A DNA stretch of 33,314 nt from Candidatus Rokuibacteriota bacterium (lineage in GTDB: Bacteria > Bacteroidota > Bacteroidia > Flavobacteriales > Flavobacteriaceae): the NCBI GenBank assembly GCA_900299425.1, contig OMJU01000157.1, positions 1-33,314 of the forward strand, read 5' to 3'. Made by a program: the position numbers and the translations under genes. This document shows, piece by piece, positions 120 to 22,775 of this stretch; position 1 is the first letter of the stretch, and the number at the start of each line of letters is the position of its first letter. The notes under the pieces are model-generated. The model had not been told where the DNA came from, searched no databases, and saw only the letters and a list, made by a program, of their open reading frames with translations.

Positions 120-1349
120 ATGGCACTTAAAGAAACTTTACATAACTTAAAAGAAAAGTACAAAGGGCAAAAAATGGCTCCAGCCTTTAATGCCATACAC
201 ACTTTTTTATACGCTCCAAATGAAACCACTCATGGTGGGACACATATAAAAGGAGCAGACGATCTAAAGCGTACCATGAATACGGTCATTATGGCCTTGG
301 TGCCCTGTCTTTTATTCGGAATTTTTAATGCTGGCTATCAGCACTACACGGCTTTAGATCCCAATGCTGTAAAAGCCAGCGGTGATTTTTTCAGTACCGC
401 ATTTTGGAATTGGGATAATTTAGTGTTTGGTGGATGGAAAGTATTGCCACTCGTAGCCGTTTCATACATCGTCGGATTGACCGTCGAATTTATTTTTGCC
501 GTCATTAAAGGACATGAGGTTGAAGAAGGTTATCTGGTAACAGGGATGCTTGTGCCGCTCATTGTACCTGTAGACATACCCCTTTGGATGCTTTCTGTAG
601 CCGTTGTTTTTGGTGTTGTAATAGGAAAGGAAGTCTTTGGTGGAACAGGAATGAATATCCTTAATCCAGCACTAACTATTCGTGCCTTTTTATTCTTCGC
701 TTATCCTACCTGGATGAGTGGAGATAAAGTTTGGGTAGCAGGAGCGCAAGAACGTGCGAGTCAAATCGCCTCTGGGCTTGAATTAGACTCGATTTCTGGT
801 GAAACCATACTCGGGACTTTAGCCCAGAACAAAGCGGTAGGCTATGACCTATGGGATATGTTCTTAGGATTTATTCCAGGGTCGGTCGGAGAAACCTCTA
901 CGGTATTGATACTTATTGGCGGTTTATTTTTAGTATTTACCAAGATTGGTAGCTGGCGCATTATGCTCTCGGCGGTGCTAGGAGCACTTGTCATGGGCAT
1001 GATGTTTAATGGTGTGGTAGATGCTGGTTGGATTGACTCCTCAAGCAAGTTTTATAGCTTGATGAGTACACCTTTTTGGGTGCATTTGATCATCGGTGGA
1101 CTTGCCTTTGGTATTGTTTATATGGCTACGGATCCGGTAACAGCCTCTCAAACCAATAAAGGAAAATGGATTTATGGATTCTTGATTGGTTTAATCTCTG
1201 TTTTGATCCGCGTGTTCAATCCGGCCTATCCAGAAGGGGTCTTCTTGGCCATTTTGTTGATGAACGTATTTGCCCCGACTATTGATCATTATGTGATTCA
1301 AGGCAATGTCAAGAGAAGAATGAATCGTTTAAAAGTTAAAAACGCATAA
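120..1349 (+). CDS. nqrB: Na(+)-translocating NADH-quinone reductase subunit B
   Basis: 409 aa multi-TM protein with NqrB/RnfD-family features (GKEVFGGTGMNILNPAL, GSVGETSTVLILIGG); operon position. Confidence 0.96.
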   Translation: MALKETLHNLKEKYKGQKMAPAFNAIHTFLYAPNETTHGGTHIKGADDLKRTMNTVIMALVPCLLFGIFNAGYQHYTALDPNAVKASGDFFSTAFWNWDNLVFGGWKVLPLVAVSYIVGLTVEFIFAVIKGHEVEEGYLVTGMLVPLIVPVDIPLWMLSVAVVFGVVIGKEVFGGTGMNILNPALTIRAFLFFAYPTWMSGDKVWVAGAQERASQIASGLELDSISGETILGTLAQNKAVGYDLWDMFLGFIPGSVGETSTVLILIGGLFLVFTKIGSWRIMLSAVLGALVMGMMFNGVVDAGWIDSSSKFYSLMSTPFWVHLIIGGLAFGIVYMATDPVTASQTNKGKWIYGFLIGLISVLIRVFNPAYPEGVFLAILLMNVFAPTIDHYVIQGNVKRRMNRLKVKNA

Positions 1350-1350
1350 G

Positions 1351-2097
1351 ATGGCGATCAATACAGAGAAAAACAGTTATACCGTAATTTTTGCCATCGT
1401 GATGGTGGTGATTGTGGGCTCAATTCTGGCCGGTCTATTTATGTTGTTTAGACCACAGATCGAGGCTAATGAGCGATTTGAAAAGCAACAGAACATCCTC
1501 TATGCCATGGGGATTAATAACAATCAAGGTGCCAATGATGTGGTATTTATTCCTACGACCGAGGTAGAGAATGAATTCAAAAAATACATTACGCGTCAGG
1601 TGGTCATCCAAGGTGATGAGGTTAAAGTGGACAACGAGGCATTTTTGATTGACATAAAGAAAGAGGCTACAAAAGCTGCTGATCCGGATTACAAAAGACG
1701 TTTGCCTTTATTTGAAGGTCAAGTGGCCGGAAAAGAGGTCTATGTGGTTCCCGTGCGCGGAAAAGGATTATGGGATGCGATTTGGGGCTTTGTTGCTATG
1801 GATAAAGACATGGTAATCCAAGGGGTATACTTTGATCATAAAGGAGAAACGCCTGGTCTTGGAGCCGAAATCAAACAGCGTTATTTTATGGATGATTTCC
1901 AAGGAGAAGGCTTTCTCGTGGACGGACAATTTGCGCCAATCAATGTGGCCAAGGGAAACAATGATCCAAAAAATAGCAACAAGAACGATCAAGAAGTTGA
2001 TGCTTTAGCGGGTGCTACCATTACCGGAGATGGTCTATCGGCCATGCTCAAAAAAGACATTCGCTTGTACGTGCCTTACTTTAAAACATTAAACTAA
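1351..2097 (+). CDS. nqrC: Na(+)-translocating NADH-quinone reductase subunit C
   Basis: N-terminal TM helix, FMN-binding domain with DALAGATITG motif; operon position. Confidence 0.95.
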   Translation: MAINTEKNSYTVIFAIVMVVIVGSILAGLFMLFRPQIEANERFEKQQNILYAMGINNNQGANDVVFIPTTEVENEFKKYITRQVVIQGDEVKVDNEAFLIDIKKEATKAADPDYKRRLPLFEGQVAGKEVYVVPVRGKGLWDAIWGFVAMDKDMVIQGVYFDHKGETPGLGAEIKQRYFMDDFQGEGFLVDGQFAPINVAKGNNDPKNSNKNDQEVDALAGATITGDGLSAMLKKDIRLYVPYFKTLN

Positions 2098-2103
2098 AAT
2101 CTT

Positions 2104-2751
2104 ATGGGACTGCTCTCGAAAAAAGATTCTAAACTCATTTTTGATCCGCTTGCGGATAATAATCCGATCACGATACAGGTACTGGGTATCTGTTCTGCAC
2201 TAGCGATTACTGCCCAATTGAAGCCTTCTATAGTTATGGCGCTTTCGGTAATTTTCGTATTAGGCATGGGTAATGTGGTGATTTCACTCATGCGTAACAT
2301 TATTCCATCAAAGATTCGCATCATCGTGCAACTTATTGTTGTGGCCACTTTGGTAATTATTGTAGATCTGGTATTAAAAGCATTTGCCTACGAACTCAGT
2401 AAGGAACTCTCTGTTTTTATTGGACTGATCATTACGAACTGTATAATTATGGGACGTTTTGAGGCATTTGCCTTGGGTAATGGCCCATGGCGTTCATTTC
2501 TCGATGGGGTAGGTAATGCACTAGGTTATGGTATTATCCTTGTTATTGTTGGATTTTTCCGTGAATTATTGGGCTCTGGAACCCTATTCGGATTTAAAGT
2601 TCTCGGGGATTCAGTTGAAAAAACTGGGCTTTATGCTTTAGGATATGAAAACAACGGATTCATGGTATTGCCTCCTATGGCGCTAATCGTGGTGGGGATA
2701 ATCATCTGGGTACAGCGTTCACGCAATAAAGAATTGATTGAAGAACTATAA
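2104..2751 (+). CDS. nqrD: Na(+)-translocating NADH-quinone reductase subunit D
   Basis: NqrD/RnfE-like TM protein with LGICSALAIT and TNCIIMGRFEAFAL motifs. Confidence 0.96.
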   Translation: MGLLSKKDSKLIFDPLADNNPITIQVLGICSALAITAQLKPSIVMALSVIFVLGMGNVVISLMRNIIPSKIRIIVQLIVVATLVIIVDLVLKAFAYELSKELSVFIGLIITNCIIMGRFEAFALGNGPWRSFLDGVGNALGYGIILVIVGFFRELLGSGTLFGFKVLGDSVEKTGLYALGYENNGFMVLPPMALIVVGIIIWVQRSRNKELIEEL

Positions 2752-2797
2752 AATAGCCTATTGATTCGGGTATGACCCGGTCAAAATCAAAAGATAT

Positions 2798-3541
2798 ATG
2801 GAACATTTAGAATTATTTTTTAAATCGATTTTTGTAGACAACATGGTGTTTGCCTACTTCCTTGGGATGTGTTCTTATTTGGCGGTTTCCAAGAAAGTAA
2901 GTACTGCAGTGGGCTTAGGGGCCGCTGTAATTTTTGTGTTGACGGTAACTGTGCCACTAAACTGGCTTTTAGATCAGTATATCCTGCAACGCGGAGCGCT
3001 CGTTTGGTTAGGTCCTGAATACGCAGATTACGATTTGAGCTTTTTATCCTTTATACTATTTATCGCGACTATCGCGACCATGGTTCAGCTTGTAGAAATC
3101 GTCGTTGAGAAGTTTTCTCCATCGCTCTATAACTCACTGGGTATATTCTTGCCCCTTATTGCCGTGAACTGTGCGATTCTTGGGGGTTCATTATTTATGC
3201 AGTCTCGCGAAATTGAAACTTTGGGATTAGCACTGAACTACGGATTTAGCTCTGGAATCGGCTGGTTCTTAGCAATTTTGGCCATCGCTGCCATCAGAGA
3301 GAAAATCCGTTATTCAAATGTTCCTGCTCCACTGCGCGGATTGGGGATCACCTTTATCATCACTGGACTTATGGCCATCGGGTTTATGAGTTTTGGTGGA
3401 ATGCTGACCGGTGGTGATGATGCGGCTCAAGAAGTTGAAGTGGCTGCTGCAGTCACACAAGAAAATGAAATGTCTAATACTGTGCCTTCTGAAGTGGTAT
3501 CACAAGAGACCCAAGCAGAGGTAAATGAAACGATAGAATAA
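2798..3541 (+). CDS. nqrE: Na(+)-translocating NADH-quinone reductase subunit E with acidic C-terminal extension
   Basis: NqrE/RnfA-like core ([20 protein letters not shown]) followed by about 45 extra residues. Confidence 0.95.
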
Positions 3542-3542
3542 G

Positions 3543-4850
3543 ATGATATTAGCCAGTACACTTGGAGTAATTTTAGCAACAGTCGCTGCCTTTTTGGTTT
3601 TAGTGCTTTTGCTGGTAGCCTTATTGTTGTTTACCAAAGAAAAATTATCGCCTTCGGGACCAGTGACCATCACCATCAATGGTGAAAAAAAGATAGAAGT
3701 CGCTTCAGGCGGAACCCTTTTGTCTACACTCGGAAATCAAAAGGTATTCTTACCATCTGCTTGTGGTGGTGGAGGAACCTGCATCCAATGTGAGTGCCAT
3801 GTGCTCGAGGGTGGAGGTGAGGCCTTGCCGACTGAGACACCACACTTCACCCGTAAGGAATTACAGCACGGAGCGCGTTTGGCCTGTCAAGTTAAGGTCA
3901 AGCAAAATATGTCTATCCAAATTCCAGAAGAGATTTTTGGAATCAAGAAGTGGGATGCCACTGTGGTGCGTAACTTTAACGTTGCCTCGTTCATTAAAGA
4001 ATTTGTGGTCGAGATTCCAGAGGACATGAATTACAAAGCAGGGGGCTATATTCAAATTGAAATTCCTCCATGTGAAATAAAATACTCAGATATAGATATT
4101 ACCGCACACCCAGAAGAGCATGAGACTGCCGATAAGTTTCAAGCAGAATGGGACAAGTTTGGGCTATGGCCGCTTGTGATGAAGAATACGGAGAGTGTAG
4201 AGCGTGCTTATTCTATGGCTTCTTACCCTGCAGAAGGTCGAGAAATTATGCTGAACGTGCGTATTGCCACCCCACCATGGGATCGTGCAAAAAATGGATG
4301 GATGGATGTGAATCCAGGAATTGCGTCTTCTTATATTTTTGCGCAGAAGCCTGGAGATAAAGTGACTATTTCAGGACCTTACGGTGAATTCTTTATCAAT
4401 GAGTCTGATGCCGAAATGCTTTATGTGGGTGGAGGAGCCGGTATGGCACCGATGCGCTCCCATTTATACCACTTGTTCAAAACACTTAAAACAGGCCGTA
4501 CAGTGACCTACTGGTATGGTGGCCGTTCAAAGCGCGAACTTTTCTATTTAGATCACTTTGAGCAACTCGAGAAAGAATTTAAAAACTTTAAGTTTTTCCT
4601 AGCGTTGTCTGAGCCATTACCCGAGGATAACTGGAAGGTTAAAAAAGACATTCACGATGCAGATGGGGATGGATTCGTCGGATTCATTCACCAAGTGGTG
4701 ATTGACAATTACTTAAATCATCACGATGCTCCAGAGGATATCGAATTGTACTTCTGTGGACCGCCATTGATGAACCAAGCCGTCCAAAAAATGGGAGAAG
4801 ATTTTGGTATCCCAGATGAAAATATTCGTTTCGACGATTTCGGAGGATAA
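3543..4850 (+). CDS. nqrF: Na(+)-translocating NADH-quinone reductase subunit F
   Basis: N-terminal TM, [2Fe-2S] ferredoxin motif [24 protein letters not shown] reductase domain ([22 protein letters not shown]). Confidence 0.97.
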
Positions 4851-4854
4851 AGAC

Positions 4855-4884
4855 AAAAAAGACCAGCCCGCTGGTCTTTTTTTT
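4855..4884 (+). terminator. Rho-independent terminator downstream of nqrF
   Basis: Perfect stem GACCAGC(4861-4867)-CC-GCTGGTC(4870-4876), preceded by an A-run and followed by 8 T. Confidence 0.9.
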
Positions 4885-4906
4885 AATTTTAAGGCATGAG
4901 ATTTCT

Positions 4907-5263
4907 ATGGAGTTGACCCAGCAAGAGATGCATTATTTGGCCATGAATATCGTGGGTGAGGAGCTCAAAGAGCAGGGTTATGAGTTTTTGGGCGTTAATT
5001 CAGACCTTAAAAAGAACCCTCAATTCGTGGCTTTAAAAGATAAGACCATTCATTTTGTTTTGGTGCGCGCGGTGCAGTTTCCTGATGATCCTGCTTTATT
5101 TGACCAGGGATTAATCAATAAAATGATCGACCATGCCAAAGCACGCGAGGCGAAATTAGCCTATGCTGGTGTGGGGTTAGGACACGGTGCAGATTATGGA
5201 AAACCGCCCCTTAAGGACCAGGCATATACTCAAGTTTATTCTGGATTGAAATGGCTATTATGA
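4907..5263 (+). CDS. Uncharacterised 118 aa NQR-locus-associated protein
   Basis: Full-length ORF between nqrF and apbE; stop overlaps the apbE start; no domain I can name with confidence. Confidence 0.8.
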   Translation: MELTQQEMHYLAMNIVGEELKEQGYEFLGVNSDLKKNPQFVALKDKTIHFVLVRAVQFPDDPALFDQGLINKMIDHAKAREAKLAYAGVGLGHGADYGKPPLKDQAYTQVYSGLKWLL

Positions 5264-6264
5264 GATTCTTTGTTTGCTTGGTAGTGCTTTTAACTGTAAT
5301 TGGTTGCGGGCCTAAAGAGGAATTACGTGTGTTATACGGCAATGCATTTGGGACGACTTATGCCATTAAATGTTATAGTTCGCTCGAAGCACCCTCTTTG
5401 CAACGCGAGGTAGATAGTTTGGTGCAAGGGGTGAATGCTTCCATCAGTACTTATGATCCTCAGAGTATAATTTCTCAAATAAATCGCGGCGATTCCACGG
5501 TTGTTGCAGACCACTACTTTAAAGAGGTCTTGTACCTCTCGCGCGAGGTAAATAGAGCGACTTTTGGATTTTTTGATCCTACTGTGGGTAGCATTGGAAA
5601 TGCGTTAGGCTTTGGTCCTAAACGAATTATGAGTATTCCTGAAGACCGTGTTTTAGACAGTTTATGTCAATTTGTAGGCCTAGAACTGGTTTCTATAAGC
5701 GAGCAAACGGGGGTTATTAAAATTGAGCCTGGTGTTTATTTAGATTTTAATGCTATTGGAAAGGGGTATGGCATAGATGTTATCGGTCGTCATTTAGAGC
5801 AATTGGGGATCAAAGATTATATAGTCGAGGTGGGCGGAGAAATCCGTGCTATGGGCCAAAATAATGGCAAAAAAAAGCCTTGGATTATCGGAATAGAATC
5901 TCCTGAGGTGCAGCAAGATGGTCGAAGTATCGATAAAGTCCTTGCCATAGAAAATCAAAGCCTTGCCTCATCAGGAAATTATCGAAAGTTCAGGGTAGAT
6001 TCGATTACAGGGAGAAAATTTGTCCACACCATCAATCCTTTGACTTGTCGCGCCGAAGAAAATTCAATTACCAGCGCGAGTGTATGGGCCTCTACCTGTG
6101 CCCAAGCCGATGCCTATGCCACGGCGATTATGGCCATGGGGCTTGAGCGAGCAAAAGATCTTATTGATGCGCGACCTGACCTTACAGTATATTTTACTTA
6201 TCACGATGTGAATCATCAGCCTCAGTGGTTTGCAACCCCAGATTTGTTAACGCGATTTCAATAA
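5260..6264 (+). CDS. apbE: FAD:protein FMN transferase, predicted lipoprotein (track start 5251; ATG at 5260 gives an ATGA overlap)
   Basis: Lipobox VIGC near N-terminus; ApbE-family features (AFGTTYAIK, DFNAIGKGYGID, VEVGGEIRAMG, SSGNYRKF). Confidence 0.93.
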   Translation: MRFFVCLVVLLTVIGCGPKEELRVLYGNAFGTTYAIKCYSSLEAPSLQREVDSLVQGVNASISTYDPQSIISQINRGDSTVVADHYFKEVLYLSREVNRATFGFFDPTVGSIGNALGFGPKRIMSIPEDRVLDSLCQFVGLELVSISEQTGVIKIEPGVYLDFNAIGKGYGIDVIGRHLEQLGIKDYIVEVGGEIRAMGQNNGKKKPWIIGIESPEVQQDGRSIDKVLAIENQSLASSGNYRKFRVDSITGRKFVHTINPLTCRAEENSITSASVWASTCAQADAYATAIMAMGLERAKDLIDARPDLTVYFTYHDVNHQPQWFATPDLLTRFQ

Positions 6265-15590: not shown

Positions 15591-16232
15591 TTATTTTTTT
15601 CGCGCCAAAGAAAGCCCATCACGAATGGGTAAAAGCACAGTCTGATAATCAGGGTGTGTTTTGAGTTCTTTGTTGAATTCCTGTAAGACTTGGGTATCTA
15701 GATCCTCTGCTTTAGCTTCTTGAGTTACTTTTCCACTCCATAGTACATTGTCGCTGATCAACAATCCACCGGAACGCAACTTAGGGGTAACTAGGTTTAA
15801 ATAGTTGAGGTAGTTTGACTTATCAGCGTCGATAAATACCAAATCAAATTTTTCGTCAATTTGGGGTAAAATTTCGGTTGCGTCCCCTAGATGGGCAATG
15901 ATTTGATGGGTTTTACCCGAGAGATCAAAATATTTTTGTTGCAGGCTGCGAAGCTCTGCATTGCGATCAATGGTATGCAATACGCCATCCGCTGTGAGCC
16001 CCTCTGCTAGACACAAGGCGGAATAGCCCGTATAGGTCCCAATTTCGAGTATGGCTTTGGGTCTTTTGAGTTGCGCAATTAAACTCAACAATCGTCCTTG
16101 GAGCGGACCACTGAGCATGCGGGGGGCCAGCACGGTTTGCCAAGTTTCAAGATTTAGATCTTTTAAGAGTTGAGGTTCATCTTGTGTATGCTCCTGAGCA
16201 TACTGCTCTATATCTTGGGGTAAAAAATCCAT
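15591..16232 (-). CDS. Class I SAM-dependent O-methyltransferase (CCoAOMT-like)
   Basis: AILEIGTYTGYSALCLAEGL, FDLVFIDADKSNYLNYL, SDNVLWSGKV. Confidence 0.92.
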   Translation of the reverse strand: MDFLPQDIEQYAQEHTQDEPQLLKDLNLETWQTVLAPRMLSGPLQGRLLSLIAQLKRPKAILEIGTYTGYSALCLAEGLTADGVLHTIDRNAELRSLQQKYFDLSGKTHQIIAHLGDATEILPQIDEKFDLVFIDADKSNYLNYLNLVTPKLRSGGLLISDNVLWSGKVTQEAKAEDLDTQVLQEFNKELKTHPDYQTVLLPIRDGLSLARKK

Positions 16233-17314
16233 TACGCCAATATTTTATTTATCAGCTCTGATTTTGCCTTTTGATCGTCTCCAAAGAGCCATTGTAATAC
16301 ATTGTCTTCCCAAATTGCATCACATTCTTGCTCATTTAAAAGGCCTTGTTTTTGGGCCAAATCAAGAATTTTACCCGGATAGGAAGATTGTGCGGCACAT
16401 TCCATTTCACCCAGAGGGTAGGGGTCGTCTAGGCCCATGAGCACCTGCTTACTGCCTTGATTTTTTATCAAAAGTTCCAAAGAGCCTGTGTCGTGGACTA
16501 AAGTGTCAAAAAATATGTTCTTGTGCCCTACACTTTTGCGTGGGTGGATTTTGCCTTCAAAGAGGTCTGGACGGCCATCAAAGCCCTGTATTCTGCGCCC
16601 TAGATTTATTTGGGCCAATTGACCACCATGAGCAAAACAGGTACGCATTCCAGGAAATTTGTCAGCATAACCATTTAGCGTATAAAAGTGGTAGGCATCG
16701 GCACATTGTGCAAGCATCCAAATCAAGTGAAATCTCCATGCAGTATTTTGGAGTTTGATGAATTTTTCACCGTCATAAGGATGAATTTCCACCGCCAAAT
16801 TATACGATGAAGCCAATTCAAAAATTGGCTCATTTTCAGCATCAAAAATACTGCGCCAAGTCCCAATAGTATCCATATAATGCGTGGGTAGACAGAGTAA
16901 TTTAAGGCCCATCTCTTCGACACAGCGTTCAATCTCCCACAATGCGCCACGCACAAAGCCCGGGTGCACCACAAAACCACAAGAGAATTTATCGCTGTGA
17001 TCATGCTGTATACGGGCATTAAAATCATTTTGAAAACGCAGTGCTTGTTTCATTTCCTCTAAACGCAAACCATTGCCATATAGCTGGGATAAATTCAATA
17101 CAACGGCGTGATCAATCTTATAGCGCTCCATCCACTGTAATTTCTCATCCAGAAAAAAACTCGAATCGGTCACAGGACGACTCCATTCCTTTTGCAGCAT
17201 AAATTTTCTATCCTTATCTACCCAGAAAATTCCTTTGTCTTTCATAAAGGCGGGAATCTCCTCTGGATAAGGAAGTAAATGAGAGTGGCCATTGATGCGC
17301 AATTTTCTTTTCAT
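16232..17314 (-). CDS. Amidohydrolase, probable 2-amino-3-carboxymuconate-6-semialdehyde decarboxylase (ACMSD)
   Basis: HSH metal motif, VEIHPYDGE, CFAHGGQLAQINLGRR, GLDDPYPLGE; kynurenine operon context. Confidence 0.87.
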   Translation of the reverse strand: MKRKLRINGHSHLLPYPEEIPAFMKDKGIFWVDKDRKFMLQKEWSRPVTDSSFFLDEKLQWMERYKIDHAVVLNLSQLYGNGLRLEEMKQALRFQNDFNARIQHDHSDKFSCGFVVHPGFVRGALWEIERCVEEMGLKLLCLPTHYMDTIGTWRSIFDAENEPIFELASSYNLAVEIHPYDGEKFIKLQNTAWRFHLIWMLAQCADAYHFYTLNGYADKFPGMRTCFAHGGQLAQINLGRRIQGFDGRPDLFEGKIHPRKSVGHKNIFFDTLVHDTGSLELLIKNQGSKQVLMGLDDPYPLGEMECAAQSSYPGKILDLAQKQGLLNEQECDAIWEDNVLQWLFGDDQKAKSELINKILA

Positions 17315-17367
17315 GATAAAAACCGTTAGTCTGGGATATGCATGGGGTTTGTATTACCGTTTCTAAG

Positions 17368-18153
17368 TTACAAAGATTTTGTCCGCCCGCCATCGATGGG
17401 TAAATTGATTCCATTGATATAGCCAGCTGAGGGACTGCATAAAAAGGCAATGCCGTAAGCAATTTCCTGAGCCTCAGCAAAGCGACGAGCAGGTACCACT
17501 GAGGTCATAAAATCACGGGCTTGTTGGGGCGTTTTATTCATCCGCTTGGCTGCGCTATTGACAATGTCTTCTAAACGATCGGTGGCGGTAAATCCAGGAA
17601 GCACATTATTTACTGTAATTCCAAACGGACCCAATTCCACAGATAAGGTTTTACTCCAATTGGCTACAGCACCGCGTATGGTATTGCTTACCCCAAGGTT
17701 TTCGATGGGTTGTTTTACCGAGGTGGAGATTACATTGACAATTCGACCAAAATGAGCTTTTTTCATCCCCGGAACCACGGCTTGCACAAGGATTTGATTG
17801 CATAAAAGGTGCTGAGCAAAAGCCGCTGCATATTGGGCGGGGTCTGCCTCAAAGGCTGGGCCCGCTGCTGGGCCACCTGTGTTGTTGATCAAAATATGAA
17901 ATTGATGTTTTTGGGCTAATGCCGCGATAGCGGTTTCAAAGCCGGCAGTGTCACTGAAATCGACGGCCATTGAGTCGTGCTTTTCATCAAAGTCCCGTGG
18001 TAATTCCCGCAAGGTTTGCTCGAGTTTTTCTGGATTGCGGGCCAGAAGCACAATTTGTGCGCCAAGCTGGGCCAACTCTAGGGCGGTGGCTTTACCGATT
18101 CCCGCTGTACTGCCGCAAACCAATGCTGTTTTTCCGGTAAGATTTAATTCCAT
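17368..18153 (-). CDS. SDR-superfamily protein with non-canonical catalytic tetrad
   Basis: Rossmann CGSTAGIG, NNTGG, GITVNNVLPGF; ISTS...SNTIRGAVANWSKTL where YxxxK is expected. Confidence 0.9.
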   Translation of the reverse strand: MELNLTGKTALVCGSTAGIGKATALELAQLGAQIVLLARNPEKLEQTLRELPRDFDEKHDSMAVDFSDTAGFETAIAALAQKHQFHILINNTGGPAAGPAFEADPAQYAAAFAQHLLCNQILVQAVVPGMKKAHFGRIVNVISTSVKQPIENLGVSNTIRGAVANWSKTLSVELGPFGITVNNVLPGFTATDRLEDIVNSAAKRMNKTPQQARDFMTSVVPARRFAEAQEIAYGIAFLCSPSAGYINGINLPIDGGRTKSL

Positions 18154-18217: not shown

Positions 18218-19663
18218 TTATGGTTTATAACTGATACAAATATTTTTAGGTTCGGTAAAAAAGCGCAAAGCTTCAAATCCACCTTCACGCCCCACACCGC
18301 TTGCCTTAACTCCGCCAAAAGGAGTTCTCAGGTCTCGATTAAGCCAAGTATTTACCCAAACGATGCCTGATTCAAGTTGCTGACCAAAGCGCATAGAACG
18401 ATCTAAATCAGAGGTCCATAGGCTGGCCGAAAGACCATAAGGAACACTGTTAGCCATTTCGATGACCTGGGCCTCAGAATCAAAAGGCATTATGGTAACT
18501 ACAGGGCCAAAAATTTCTTCTTGATTTACACGACACAAATGGTCATTTACTTCGATTACTGTGGGTTCTAAATAATAACCCTCGGGATGTTGAGGCACAT
18601 CGGCTTTATTGCCACCACAGAGCAATAAGCCTCCCTGGTTTTGGGCCAGGTCGATATAATTCAAGATTTTTTGGCGATGCTCCTTTGAAATGACAGCACC
18701 CAAATCTACCTCATGGTTGGGTGGCCCCACCCGAAGTTGGGTAACTCTGCTGACAAAGTCTTCTTTAAATTTCGCGTAAATCGAACGCTCTACAAAAATA
18801 CGGCTGCCGCACAGACAAATCTGTCCTTGATTGGCAAATGATGACTTTAATGTGATTTCCAGCATGCGCGGATAATCACAATCGGCAAAAATGATATTGG
18901 GGTTTTTCCCGCCTAATTCTAGGGATAATTTTTTTAACATGGGCGCTGCGACTTTGGCAATATGAGCCCCTGTGGCAGTACCTCCGGTAAACGAAATGGC
19001 CTTAATTTCTGGATGGGCGATTATGGCTTGCCCCGCACTAGCACCGGTCCCATGGACAATGTTCAATACCCCCGCAGGCAGTCCTGCTTGCTGACATAAT
19101 TCAGCCAGTAAATGCGCAGTTACAGGAGTGAGTTCACTGGGTTTGGCCACTACCGTATTGCCTGCCGCTAGGGCTGGGGCAATTTTCCAAGTAAATAGGT
19201 AAAGAGGAAGATTCCAAGGGGAAATACAACCCACTACACCTATTGGATGCCGCAGCGTAAAGTTAATGGTGTTCTGGCCAACACTCTCATGGGCTTCGCT
19301 AGAAAATTGAGTCAAGGCATGGGCAAAAAATCGAAAATTACTTGAGGCCCGAGGAATGTCAATGGTTTTGGCCAAGGACAGCGGCTTGCCGCTGTCTTTT
19401 GATTCGGCTTGTGCCAAGCGCTCTAGATTTTCATCTATTAGGTCCGCTATACGAGCCAATAGAGCGCTGCGCTGCTCTAAGGTAGTTTGTCGCCAAGTTA
19501 TAAACGCATTTTTGGCCGCTTGAAATGCCAGTGCTACGTCGTTATCTGAACTTTGCGGTAGACTTCCATAAATCTGCCCCGTCGCCGGCTCAATATTATC
19601 CAGACGCTCCCCCGATAGAGCGTGTTGTAATGTGCCGTTAATATAATTGAGCACCTGAGCCAT
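18218..19663 (-). CDS. Aldehyde dehydrogenase, probable 2-aminomuconic/2-hydroxymuconic semialdehyde dehydrogenase
   Basis: ISPWNLPLYLFTWKIAPALAAGNTVVAKPSE, LELGGKNPNIIF, NQGQICLCGSRIFVE; context. Confidence 0.9.
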   Translation of the reverse strand: MAQVLNYINGTLQHALSGERLDNIEPATGQIYGSLPQSSDNDVALAFQAAKNAFITWRQTTLEQRSALLARIADLIDENLERLAQAESKDSGKPLSLAKTIDIPRASSNFRFFAHALTQFSSEAHESVGQNTINFTLRHPIGVVGCISPWNLPLYLFTWKIAPALAAGNTVVAKPSELTPVTAHLLAELCQQAGLPAGVLNIVHGTGASAGQAIIAHPEIKAISFTGGTATGAHIAKVAAPMLKKLSLELGGKNPNIIFADCDYPRMLEITLKSSFANQGQICLCGSRIFVERSIYAKFKEDFVSRVTQLRVGPPNHEVDLGAVISKEHRQKILNYIDLAQNQGGLLLCGGNKADVPQHPEGYYLEPTVIEVNDHLCRVNQEEIFGPVVTIMPFDSEAQVIEMANSVPYGLSASLWTSDLDRSMRFGQQLESGIVWVNTWLNRDLRTPFGGVKASGVGREGGFEALRFFTEPKNICISYKP

Positions 19664-20091
19664 TAGTTCATTGGTTTATAGGCCGTAGCTTTGATTTCAA
19701 TAAGCAGCAGTGGATGAGGCAATTGATGCACAGCAACTGTAGTTCGTGCAGGGCCACTTTGGGCATTAAAATACTGTGCGTAAACCGCGTTATACCCTGC
19801 AAAGTCATTCATATTGACCAAAAATGTAGTCAAATCCACTAAGTCTTCTAAACCTGCGCCTTCCGTTTCAAGATAGTCTTTGATGTTATCGAGTACCGCT
19901 ATGGTTTGTTCTTTGATGTCAAGCCGCATACTGCCCATGGCATCCACCTTATGAGCGCCTGCTATTGTATTGTCTGGTTTTCGCGCACTGGTCCCAGAAA
20001 TATACAGATAGTCTCCCACACGTTTGATATGGGGATAAGCGCCTCGGGGAGTAGCTTTGCCTTCGACAAGTTTATTGTTTGATTGTGCCAT
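19663..20091 (-). CDS. RidA-family protein, probable 2-aminomuconate deaminase
   Basis: RidA signature region [25 protein letters not shown]; context between kmo and ALDH. Confidence 0.85.
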
Positions 20092-20100
20092 AAATACCGT

Positions 20101-21516
20101 TTAATCGTTAGGTTCTTTTTGTTCCAAAAGGGCATTTGTATGCCCTTGAATGAGCAAGAGCTGCTCATCAAGTTCTTGTGATTCGTTTAATTTGTTTTGT
20201 CGCAAAAGCTGTTCAATGGCCCTATCTTGCGCCCGACCTCTAGTCATGGCTTGATGATAGGTGAGCTCAGGACTGAAGGTTACCATGGAGTATTTACTTT
20301 GGTATTGCTCTGATCGCTCTTGTTCCAAACGGACCTCAATTCCTCTTTTGCGCTGAAAAATAGGATCAGCGGTATGCTCTTTCATTTCGTGGAAATTATC
20401 CAAAGCGAGATCAGCGATGGCATCAGCATCCTTTTTGCGTTTTTGTGCAAACTGATCAAAAAGCGCGCTCCACTCTGTAATTCCTGAATCCATGAGTTGA
20501 TCCAGTACCAGAACATCTTCAAAAGAGGCATTCATGCCTTGCCCGTAAAAAGGAACAATGGCATGGGCTGCGTCTCCTAGTATCAGGACATTTCCTTTGG
20601 CATTCCAGGGGCCGCACTTTACCGTTCCTAAGGGTCCTGTAGGATTTTCTTGATACTGCTCGATAAGATCGGGGATCAATTGCAGTAACTCTGGATATTT
20701 TTCCTCAAAATAGTGGCGAATTTGCGGGGCACTTTCTATATGATCGAAGCCATGCGGATACTCGGTGTGACTCATGAATAAGGTCACTGTAAAACTATGA
20801 TCTAAATTGGGTAGTGCGATAATCATATCCTGTCCACGAGGCCAAATATGAAGTGCATCAGCCCTGAGTTGAAATGAGCCATCAGCCCCTGGGGCGATAG
20901 ACAACTCTTTATAGCCATGGCTGAGCCAGTCCAAAGAAAACTTAAAATCTGCGCCATTTTGCTCCTGAAGGGTTTTCCTGACCACAGAACCAGCACCATC
21001 GCAGCCAAAAATCACATTGGCCTGGATTTCAAGAACGGATTTGTCCTGCTGCTCTGGATCGGATGAATTTTGCTCAAATTGGGCAGCACAAGTTTCTAGG
21101 TCAAGACCGATACAGGGGGCATCAAAATATAAATTTACCTTGCCCAATGCTTCAATGGCATCAAGCAGGAGTGCATTGAGCCCTGGCCGTGAGATAGAAT
21201 TGATTGCGGTATTTGGATTGCCACTGTAGGGGCTGAAAAATGGATCCCGCTGAAGTTGATGAATCATGCGACCGTGCATGGGCAGACTAATGGCTAGTGC
21301 TTTTTGGTCCATCCCGGCCATTTTGAGCGCGTTTAATCCGCGATCACTCAAGGCCAAATTTATAGAGCGGCCAGCGTCTAGACTCTGGCGTCGCAAATCG
21401 GGACGCTTCTCCACAAGAGTGACTTGATGTCCTCTTTGAGCCAGTCTTAAGGCCAAAAGGCTGCCACATAAACCAGCGCCAATGATTAATATTTTGTCAT
21501 TTTTGTTCAAGGACAT
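20101..21516 (-). CDS. kmo: Kynurenine 3-monooxygenase (track start 21525; ATG at 21516 overlaps the kynU stop as TGATG)
   Basis: GAGLCGSLLALRLAQRGHQVTLVEKRPD, RSINLALSDRGLNAL, LGDAAHAIVPFYGQGMNASFED. Confidence 0.95.
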   Translation of the reverse strand: MSLNKNDKILIIGAGLCGSLLALRLAQRGHQVTLVEKRPDLRRQSLDAGRSINLALSDRGLNALKMAGMDQKALAISLPMHGRMIHQLQRDPFFSPYSGNPNTAINSISRPGLNALLLDAIEALGKVNLYFDAPCIGLDLETCAAQFEQNSSDPEQQDKSVLEIQANVIFGCDGAGSVVRKTLQEQNGADFKFSLDWLSHGYKELSIAPGADGSFQLRADALHIWPRGQDMIIALPNLDHSFTVTLFMSHTEYPHGFDHIESAPQIRHYFEEKYPELLQLIPDLIEQYQENPTGPLGTVKCGPWNAKGNVLILGDAAHAIVPFYGQGMNASFEDVLVLDQLMDSGITEWSALFDQFAQKRKKDADAIADLALDNFHEMKEHTADPIFQRKRGIEVRLEQERSEQYQSKYSMVTFSPELTYHQAMTRGRAQDRAIEQLLRQNKLNESQELDEQLLLIQGHTNALLEQKEPND

Positions 21517-22775
21517 CACAGACATTGGTTTAAGCGTTGAACAAAATTATAGACATCCTGGTAGCTATTATAAAGTGGGGCAGGGGCCACGCGTATAACA
21601 TCTGGTTCCCGCCAATCACTGACTACGCCTAGATCGGTTAAGGCATCATGGAGTGAGCGGTCGCTGTCTTTAATCTGTAAAGAGAGTTGTGCCCCCCGTT
21701 GCCCAGGATCAAGTGGAGTCATTATTTTTATTTTATCGGTATTCAAATTGGTCAGTAATTCTGCCAAGTAGGCCGTGAGTTGAACTGATTTGTCCCGAAT
21801 CGCTTTCATTGTGGCACGATCAAAAATATCTAAAGAAGCGCGTATGGCGGCCATGGATAAAATAGGTGGATTACTCAGTTGCCAGCCCTCAGCTCCTTCA
21901 ATGGGCTCAAAAGCATCGCGCATTTTGAATCGGGTGACTTTATCATGCCCCCACCACCCTGTAAATCTCGGAAGGTCATGAGCCTTTGCATGCCTTTTAT
22001 GGACAAATACACCACCCAAACTTCCTGGTCCGCTATTGAGGTATTTGTACGTACACCATACACCAAAATCTACATTGTTGTCATGCAGGTCACAAATGAT
22101 GTTACCAGCGCCATGTGCAAGATTAAACCCAACCTTTGCCCCGTAGTGATGCCCAAGTTCGGTGATGGCTCCTATGGGATAAACTTGGCCTGAGTAATAA
22201 TTAGAATTCCCTAACATGATCAGGGCGACGCTATCTTTGTGCTGCTCCATTAATGCTTTTAGACTGGCCATTTGGCAAAGCCCAGTTTCTGGATCAGGCT
22301 TCCACAGCAATAAACTCTGGTTAGGATCATAGCCATGAAATTTTATTTGGCTCTCAACAGCATAACGATCACTTGGAAAAGCATCGGCCTCGATAATTAT
22401 TTTATGACGCTGCCCCGTGGGCCTGTAAAAGGAAACCATCATCAGATGCAAATTTACCGTCAGGGTATTCATGACCACAACTTCTTGGTCTTGGCCTCCC
22501 ACAATTTTTGCCATTTGATGGGTTAAAAGCTCATGGTAAGGCAGCCATGCGTTGTGCCCTTGGGTATGACCTTCGACGCCCCATTTAGCCCAGTGCTCTA
22601 ATTCGTCACTGATGAATTTTTTTGTCTGCTTGGGTTGCAGCCCCAGAGAATTGCCGCAGAGATAGACTAAGGGATTCCCCTTTACATCATTTGGCATTTC
22701 AAATTCTTGGCGATAGGTGGCCAAAACATCGCTTTGGTCGAGCAATTTGGCCTTATTTAGTGCTTGATCGTTCAT
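21516..22775 (-). CDS. kynU: Kynureninase
   Basis: YLCGNSLGLQPKQ, EGHTQGHNAWLPYHELL, CTYKYLNSGPGSLGGVFVH PLP-Lys region. Confidence 0.96.
   Translation of the reverse strand: MNDQALNKAKLLDQSDVLATYRQEFEMPNDVKGNPLVYLCGNSLGLQPKQTKKFISDELEHWAKWGVEGHTQGHNAWLPYHELLTHQMAKIVGGQDQEVVVMNTLTVNLHLMMVSFYRPTGQRHKIIIEADAFPSDRYAVESQIKFHGYDPNQSLLLWKPDPETGLCQMASLKALMEQHKDSVALIMLGNSNYYSGQVYPIGAITELGHHYGAKVGFNLAHGAGNIICDLHDNNVDFGVWCTYKYLNSGPGSLGGVFVHKRHAKAHDLPRFTGWWGHDKVTRFKMRDAFEPIEGAEGWQLSNPPILSMAAIRASLDIFDRATMKAIRDKSVQLTAYLAELLTNLNTDKIKIMTPLDPGQRGAQLSLQIKDSDRSLHDALTDLGVVSDWREPDVIRVAPAPLYNSYQDVYNFVQRLNQCL

Follow-up and report, generated by a model that had tools for sequence, protein, structure and literature searches.

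The stretch of DNA analysed here (the window, 33,314 nucleotides of contig OMJU01000157.1) carries within a kynurenine operon a gene for a short-chain dehydrogenase/reductase (SDR) whose product lacks the catalytic Tyr and Lys. What reaction might such a protein catalyse in kynurenine breakdown? The kynurenine route is drawn via 2-aminomuconate, 2-oxoadipate and glutaryl-CoA, and the step named "2-aminomuconate reductase" or "oxalocrotonate reductase" is listed without a gene (PMC12899273). In a fungal study, reduction of 2-oxo-3-hexenedioate to 2-oxoadipate was regarded as possible, and an SDR was drawn near the fungal gene cluster (PMC7842363). No gene was assigned to the reduction that forms 2-oxoadipate in the literature searched, which covered few subscription journals, such that a prior assignment is possible.

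The kynurenine operon of the window

The operon lies on the minus strand and runs from kynureninase through the probable kynurenine 3-monooxygenase (KMO), a RidA-type protein, an aldehyde dehydrogenase (ALDH), the SDR and ACMSD to an O-methyltransferase (Table 1). The neighbours of the SDR were tested by profile and PDB matches, and its placement in an earlier note on this DNA, between the ALDH and ACMSD genes of a kynurenine operon, is upheld. The KMO gene matches the VioC family at 173 bits, under the cut-off, and takes its name from ORF similarity and operon context only. The aldehyde dehydrogenase reaches 552 bits with TIGR03216, likewise under the cut-off. The O-methyltransferase occupies the operon end in close relatives only (neighbour cluster 32, four loci).

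Table 1. Genes of the kynurenine operon, listed in operon order.
Gene	Positions	Strand	Predicted product or feature	Basis
Kynureninase	21516-22775	minus		TIGR01814, 431 bits (cut-off 246)
Probable kynurenine 3-monooxygenase	20101-21525	minus		FAD monooxygenase similarity; orthologues adjoin kynureninase in relatives
2-aminomuconate deaminase, RidA family	19663-20091	minus	2-hydroxymuconate/4-oxalocrotonate	PDB 6izh, 8e-51 (next match 6e-20)
2-aminomuconate 6-semialdehyde dehydrogenase	18218-19663	minus	2-aminomuconate	PDB 7bzv/4i1w, E ~1e-131
SDR	17368-18153	minus	261 aa; Ser156/Arg160/His115 instead of Tyr/Lys/Asn	Translation
Divergent ACMSD	16232-17314	minus		PDB ACMSD, 1e-23 to 1e-10; orthologues 76-87% identical in relatives
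SAM O-methyltransferase (operon end)	15591-16232	minus		PF01596, 164 bits

3-Hydroxyanthranilate dioxygenase (HAAO) was not found in the window or in its own assembly, which is 83% complete. In six relatives (loci L081, L087, L088, L090, L093 and L097), the HAAO gene lies exactly between the SDR and ACMSD genes, a place taken in the window by a 53-base gap (17315-17367). The divergent type of ACMSD is found in the window's family; other Bacteroidota and Lysobacterales have an animal-like ACMSD that matches solved ACMSD structures at about 1e-146. Elsewhere in the window (120-6264) are ordinary genes for subunits of an Nqr/Rnf-type Na+-translocating NADH:quinone reductase, followed by ApbE.

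Active site, family and cofactor site of the SDR

The plus strand at the SDR locus is full of stops, and the SDR reading frame is that of the minus strand. Counted along the protein, Ser138, Tyr151 and Lys155 of FabG (spacing +13 and +17) correspond to Ser143, Ser156 and Arg160 of the SDR, while FabG Asn110 corresponds to His115; the catalytic Ser (Ser143) is the only member of the Asn-Ser-Tyr-Lys tetrad that is retained. The Rossmann motif reads C-GSTAGIG, in which the GxxxGxG glycines are intact and Cys replaces the preceding Thr only. Both the degenerate tetrad and the motif CGSTAGIG had been read in this way in the earlier note, and both readings stand, the tetrad now as an invariant subfamily pattern (apart from His115, at 91/99). 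The altered Rossmann motif matters little, as its three glycines are invariant and Thr alone is replaced by Cys.

The protein has the classical SDR fold, with matches to PF13561 (134 bits) and PF00106 (121 bits) and an invariant GxxxGxG motif and N91. Its AlphaFold model has a pLDDT of 94.4 and aligns with SDR structures at a TM score of 0.9. An identity as FabG (3-oxoacyl-ACP reductase) was rejected: the scores do not exceed 135 bits against listed FabG cut-offs of 222-332, and Tyr and Lys are absent.

G14, G18, G20, R39, N91, S143, S156 and R160 are each present in all 93 of the distinct subfamily proteins compared, and H115 in 84. The substitutions are therefore neither a sequencing accident nor decay. 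A set of 99 subfamily members drawn from two phyla again shows S143, S156, R160 and R193 to be invariant; position 147 is Lys or Arg in 98, and the cofactor-site residues G14, G18, G20, R39 and N91 occur in every protein. Judged from these alignments, the Ser156/Arg160 substitutions are the mark of a conserved subfamily under strong constraint. The sole Tyr kept at 90% across the subfamily is Tyr245, in the C-terminal part, and it is therefore unlikely that a replacement catalytic Tyr is supplied from elsewhere in the protein.

An Arg that ends the second strand is a usual sign of NADP preference, and R39, which closes the second strand of the SDR, is invariant in the subfamily. The ten closest solved structures found by Foldseek all belong to proteins that are said to bind NADP(H) or to depend on NADPH, the nearest being 5va8 (NADP), 5idy (NADP), 5vps (NADPH), 6jha (NADPH), 6jhb (NADPH and 4-hydroxyphenylpyruvate) and 3u4c. 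Several of these relatives have also lost the catalytic pair, with Ser/Arg at the Tyr/Lys positions in 5va8, Ser/Asn in AerF and Asn/Asn in BacG. Since solved relatives lacking Tyr and Lys bind NADP(H), loss of these residues does not equate to loss of redox chemistry. We infer from the sequence that the SDR uses NADPH as its cofactor.

The SDR shares with the degenerate group that includes BacG and AerF the loss of Tyr and Lys, the retention of an NADP(H) site and the presence of K147 and R193. The last two residues are common to the subfamily, BacG and AerF, and R193 is missing from the SDRs with Tyr in the comparison, Escherichia coli FabG among them; BacG and AerF have Lys at position 115. 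In the tree, a branch with support of 91/80 separates the degenerate SDRs from the others, a grouping that is suggestive only. A placement of the subfamily nested with BacG and AerF was rejected, as the tree puts these two on a separate outer branch.

Distribution in Bacteroidota and Lysobacterales

The survey of Bacteroidota covered 395 genomes, with the window's own left out. SDRs of class A (about 41-60% identity) were found in 63 genomes and a strong HAAO match (PF06052) in 86. Most class A proteins form a core clade (support 99/96); five from family f33, none of them accompanied by HAAO, fall outside it and were split off, and the idea that all class A proteins share one function was abandoned. 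HAAO is present in 49 of the 58 core-clade genomes (Fisher p 9e-30 over the 395 genomes), a count of genomes rather than of independent events, so that this and the following p values overstate the association and replication in Lysobacterales is the better control. At 34 of 55 core loci the SDR has a kynurenine gene no more than 9 kb away, as against none of 27 sister-clade loci; at the other 21 core loci such a gene is absent over that distance. Either of the two types of ACMSD was found in 45 of 49 genomes having both HAAO and the SDR, compared with 5 of 16 tested genomes having HAAO without the SDR (p 5e-6). The SDR therefore tracks the catabolic branch and not the quinolinate branch to NAD.

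Replication came from 250 genomes of the proteobacterial order Lysobacterales, in which the SDR occurs in 139, HAAO in 175 and both in 132 (p 2e-23). Many loci (e.g., L205-L210, L214 and L215) have the order SDR-ALDH-RidA-HAAO-ACMSD-KynU-KMO, which differs from that of the window's family, and in 36 of the 111 genomes listed for both, no more than 6 kb separates the SDR from HAAO. The HAAO loci of genomes that lack the SDR (L226-L231 and L236) consist of HAAO-KynU-KMO only; ACMSD, the dehydrogenase and the deaminase were not found in the 16 kb read at each. In both groups the SDR often adjoins the genes for ACMSD, 2-aminomuconate semialdehyde dehydrogenase and 2-aminomuconate deaminase. Both phyla thus link the SDR to the HAAO-ACMSD branch, as would be expected of a kynurenine enzyme acting after ACMSD, with exceptions. 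The linkage to kynU, kmo and ACMSD raised in the earlier note proves to be conserved.

The exceptions are nine near-complete core-clade genomes (G007, G033, G122, G126, G150, G190, G250, G254 and G301) that have neither HAAO nor either type of ACMSD. In four of them the SDR adjoins kynureninase, and these sequences are nested in the tree beside relatives with the full operon. The SDR-kynureninase pairs stand at L089, L096, L103 and L109. Retention of the SDR in such genomes may reflect a recent loss of the other genes, leaving a remnant, or another use of the protein, and it is the main weakness of the ene-reductase reading set out below.

Two further clades were observed alongside. In the sister clade f33 (L121, L122, L124, L128 and L137), the motif near the catalytic Ser is altered in several members (e.g., TSIGAKQP), and no kynurenine genes are nearby. 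Another degenerate SDR clade (LALSNTIRAAV...VLTGYFDT) directly follows a gene for a 120-aa cupin (L139:8692-9054; also L140 and L142).

In bacteria, 4-oxalocrotonate is known to be decarboxylated by DmpH, and the Burkholderia pathway has a decarboxylase/hydratase/aldolase branch. A convincing 4-oxalocrotonate decarboxylase (DmpH; TIGR03218) was not found in the 64 genomes carrying the SDR, the window's own included, apart from one weak 56-bit match (G030). Two of the five Bacteroidota genomes with ACMSD and no SDR (G128 and G368) have DmpH/DmpE-family gene pairs, one of which adjoins HAAO in G128; in G368 (L164) the order RidA-ALDH-ACMSD-O-methyltransferase is retained and the SDR is missing from its usual place. 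In the other three (G053, G085 and G294), neither the SDR nor the decarboxylase was found. Two loci from genomes that lack the SDR (L162:9393-10310 and L163:7024-7890) also have, next to ACMSD, genes for uncharacterised proteins of 290-305 aa with comparable D(I/L)SIP motifs, for which an NCBIfam match was not found. A DmpH-family gene is absent from 129 of the 132 Lysobacterales genomes with HAAO and the SDR and present in three. The SDR and DmpH are thus distributed like alternatives, although few genomes of the surveyed groups have DmpH in any case, and its absence alone is weak evidence.

The window's genome has a glutaryl-CoA dehydrogenase (L037), and this gene lies three to seven genes from the SDR at L096, L103 and L110. 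As a marker of the route it was discarded, since it is present in all 80 genomes examined, controls included, and is uninformative.

Proposed reaction, alternatives and known relatives

From these observations we infer a substrate, a reaction, cofactor use and roles for the basic residues. The SDR is probably an NADPH-dependent ene-reductase that converts 4-oxalocrotonate (or 2-aminomuconate) to 2-oxoadipate. It seems somewhat more plausible than otherwise that its subfamily is the missing bacterial gene of the reductive kynurenine branch to 2-oxoadipate, carrying out conjugate C=C reduction with Ser/Arg in place of Tyr/Lys. ACMSD and the aldehyde dehydrogenase would yield 2-aminomuconate, which the RidA-type deaminase would convert to 2-hydroxymuconate/4-oxalocrotonate (2-oxo-3-hexenedioate); this deamination may also be spontaneous (PMC7842363). 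With NADPH as hydride donor, the SDR would then reduce the C=C bond conjugated with the 2-keto acid of 4-oxalocrotonate, and the resulting 2-oxoadipate would pass through a 2-oxo acid dehydrogenase to the glutaryl-CoA dehydrogenase route. In a conjugate reduction of this kind, Tyr and Lys would not be needed to protonate a reacting carbonyl, and carboxylate binding and enolate stabilisation would fall to Arg160, Arg193, Lys/Arg147 and His115. The opposite order, in which the SDR would reduce 2-aminomuconate and the deaminase would hydrolyse the enamine or imine, is the less likely of the two but still quite conceivable. If the ene-reductase reading is true, the SDR is a testable enzyme for the reductive step. 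It would explain how the pathway is completed without a 4-oxalocrotonate decarboxylase in many Bacteroidota and Lysobacterales, and would assign a role to some members of a large SDR group that is usually dismissed as degenerate.

The SDR could instead be a non-redox enzyme of the same branch, a tautomerase, hydratase or decarboxylase acting on 2-hydroxymuconate or 4-oxalocrotonate, with NADP(H) absent or structural only. The loss of Tyr and Lys would suit such an enzyme, and some enzyme is needed where the genomes have almost no 4-oxalocrotonate decarboxylase and none of the annotated genes of the operon is a tautomerase. It is quite improbable, however, given the invariance of every cofactor-site residue, the NADP(H)-bound or NADPH-dependent nature of the ten closest solved structures and the fact that the characterised relatives without Tyr and Lys are reductases (PMC9147277). 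The earlier note had called redox chemistry doubtful and favoured a hydratase, tautomerase, hydrolase or scaffold in aminomuconate breakdown. The pathway role is borne out by neighbourhood and co-occurrence in two phyla, whereas the non-redox kind of role gives way before the same cofactor site and before BacG and AerF, NADPH-dependent C=C reductases of 2-keto acids that do without Tyr and Lys.

An NADPH reductase working elsewhere in or near the pathway, such as a carbonyl or aldehyde reductase that clears semialdehydes or an enzyme acting on a kynureninase-derived product, would equally have an intact cofactor site and would explain why the SDR is kept beside kynureninase in four genomes without HAAO and ACMSD. 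Against this, the SDR tracks ACMSD and not HAAO alone, the Lysobacterales HAAO-KynU-KMO loci that show no ACMSD across the 16 kb read are also without the SDR, and the missing Tyr is normally needed for carbonyl reduction, all of which make this explanation unlikely. Much the same low probability attaches to the view that the SDR is a generic member of a broad degenerate SDR group that has a housekeeping or other role and whose place in the operon is inherited. Class B and the f33 sister clade, which belong to the wider clade, are indeed common and unlinked to kynurenine genes, and the 21 core loci without such a gene nearby would be natural for a protein of this kind. Against it, the genes cluster in both phyla although their order differs, and co-occurrence at the genome level is strong.

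Among known systems, the mammalian step called "2-aminomuconate reductase" or "oxalocrotonate reductase" is the same reaction as that proposed for the SDR; no gene or protein sequence was found with which to compare it. TM1169 (PDB 1o5i), a FabG by annotation only, has the Ser/Arg pair and R193 as the SDR does, but is without K147 and His115. The closest solved proteins are Burkholderia SDRs from structural genomics (5va8, 5idy and 5vps; 36-37% identity, TM 0.90-0.93, NADP(H) bound), which have the same Ser/Arg pair, although 5va8 has Asn where the SDR has His115; their entries name no function. AerF (PDB 6jh7, 6jha and 6jhb), for which NADPH and 4-hydroxyphenylpyruvate complexes have been solved, resembles the SDR in K147, R193 and the Ser that takes the place of Tyr. 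It differs in having Asn at the Lys position, belongs to cyanobacterial secondary metabolism, shares 31-32% identity with the SDR and lies outside the subfamily.

BacG/YwfH of bacilysin biosynthesis (PDB 3u49 and 3u4c) is an NADPH-dependent reductase that, like the SDR, lacks the catalytic Tyr and Lys, has K147 and R193, and is basic at position 115. Its target is a C=C bond conjugated to a 2-keto acid, which it reduces. Compared with the SDR (phmmer E 2e-34), BacG has Asn/Asn rather than Ser/Arg and Gly rather than Ser143, acts on a cyclic C9 substrate and falls outside the subfamily in the tree. The reaction turns a dihydro-hydroxyphenylpyruvate derivative into a tetrahydro one (PMC9147277). 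4-Oxalocrotonate contains a 2-oxo-3-ene acid unit, as does the substrate of BacG.
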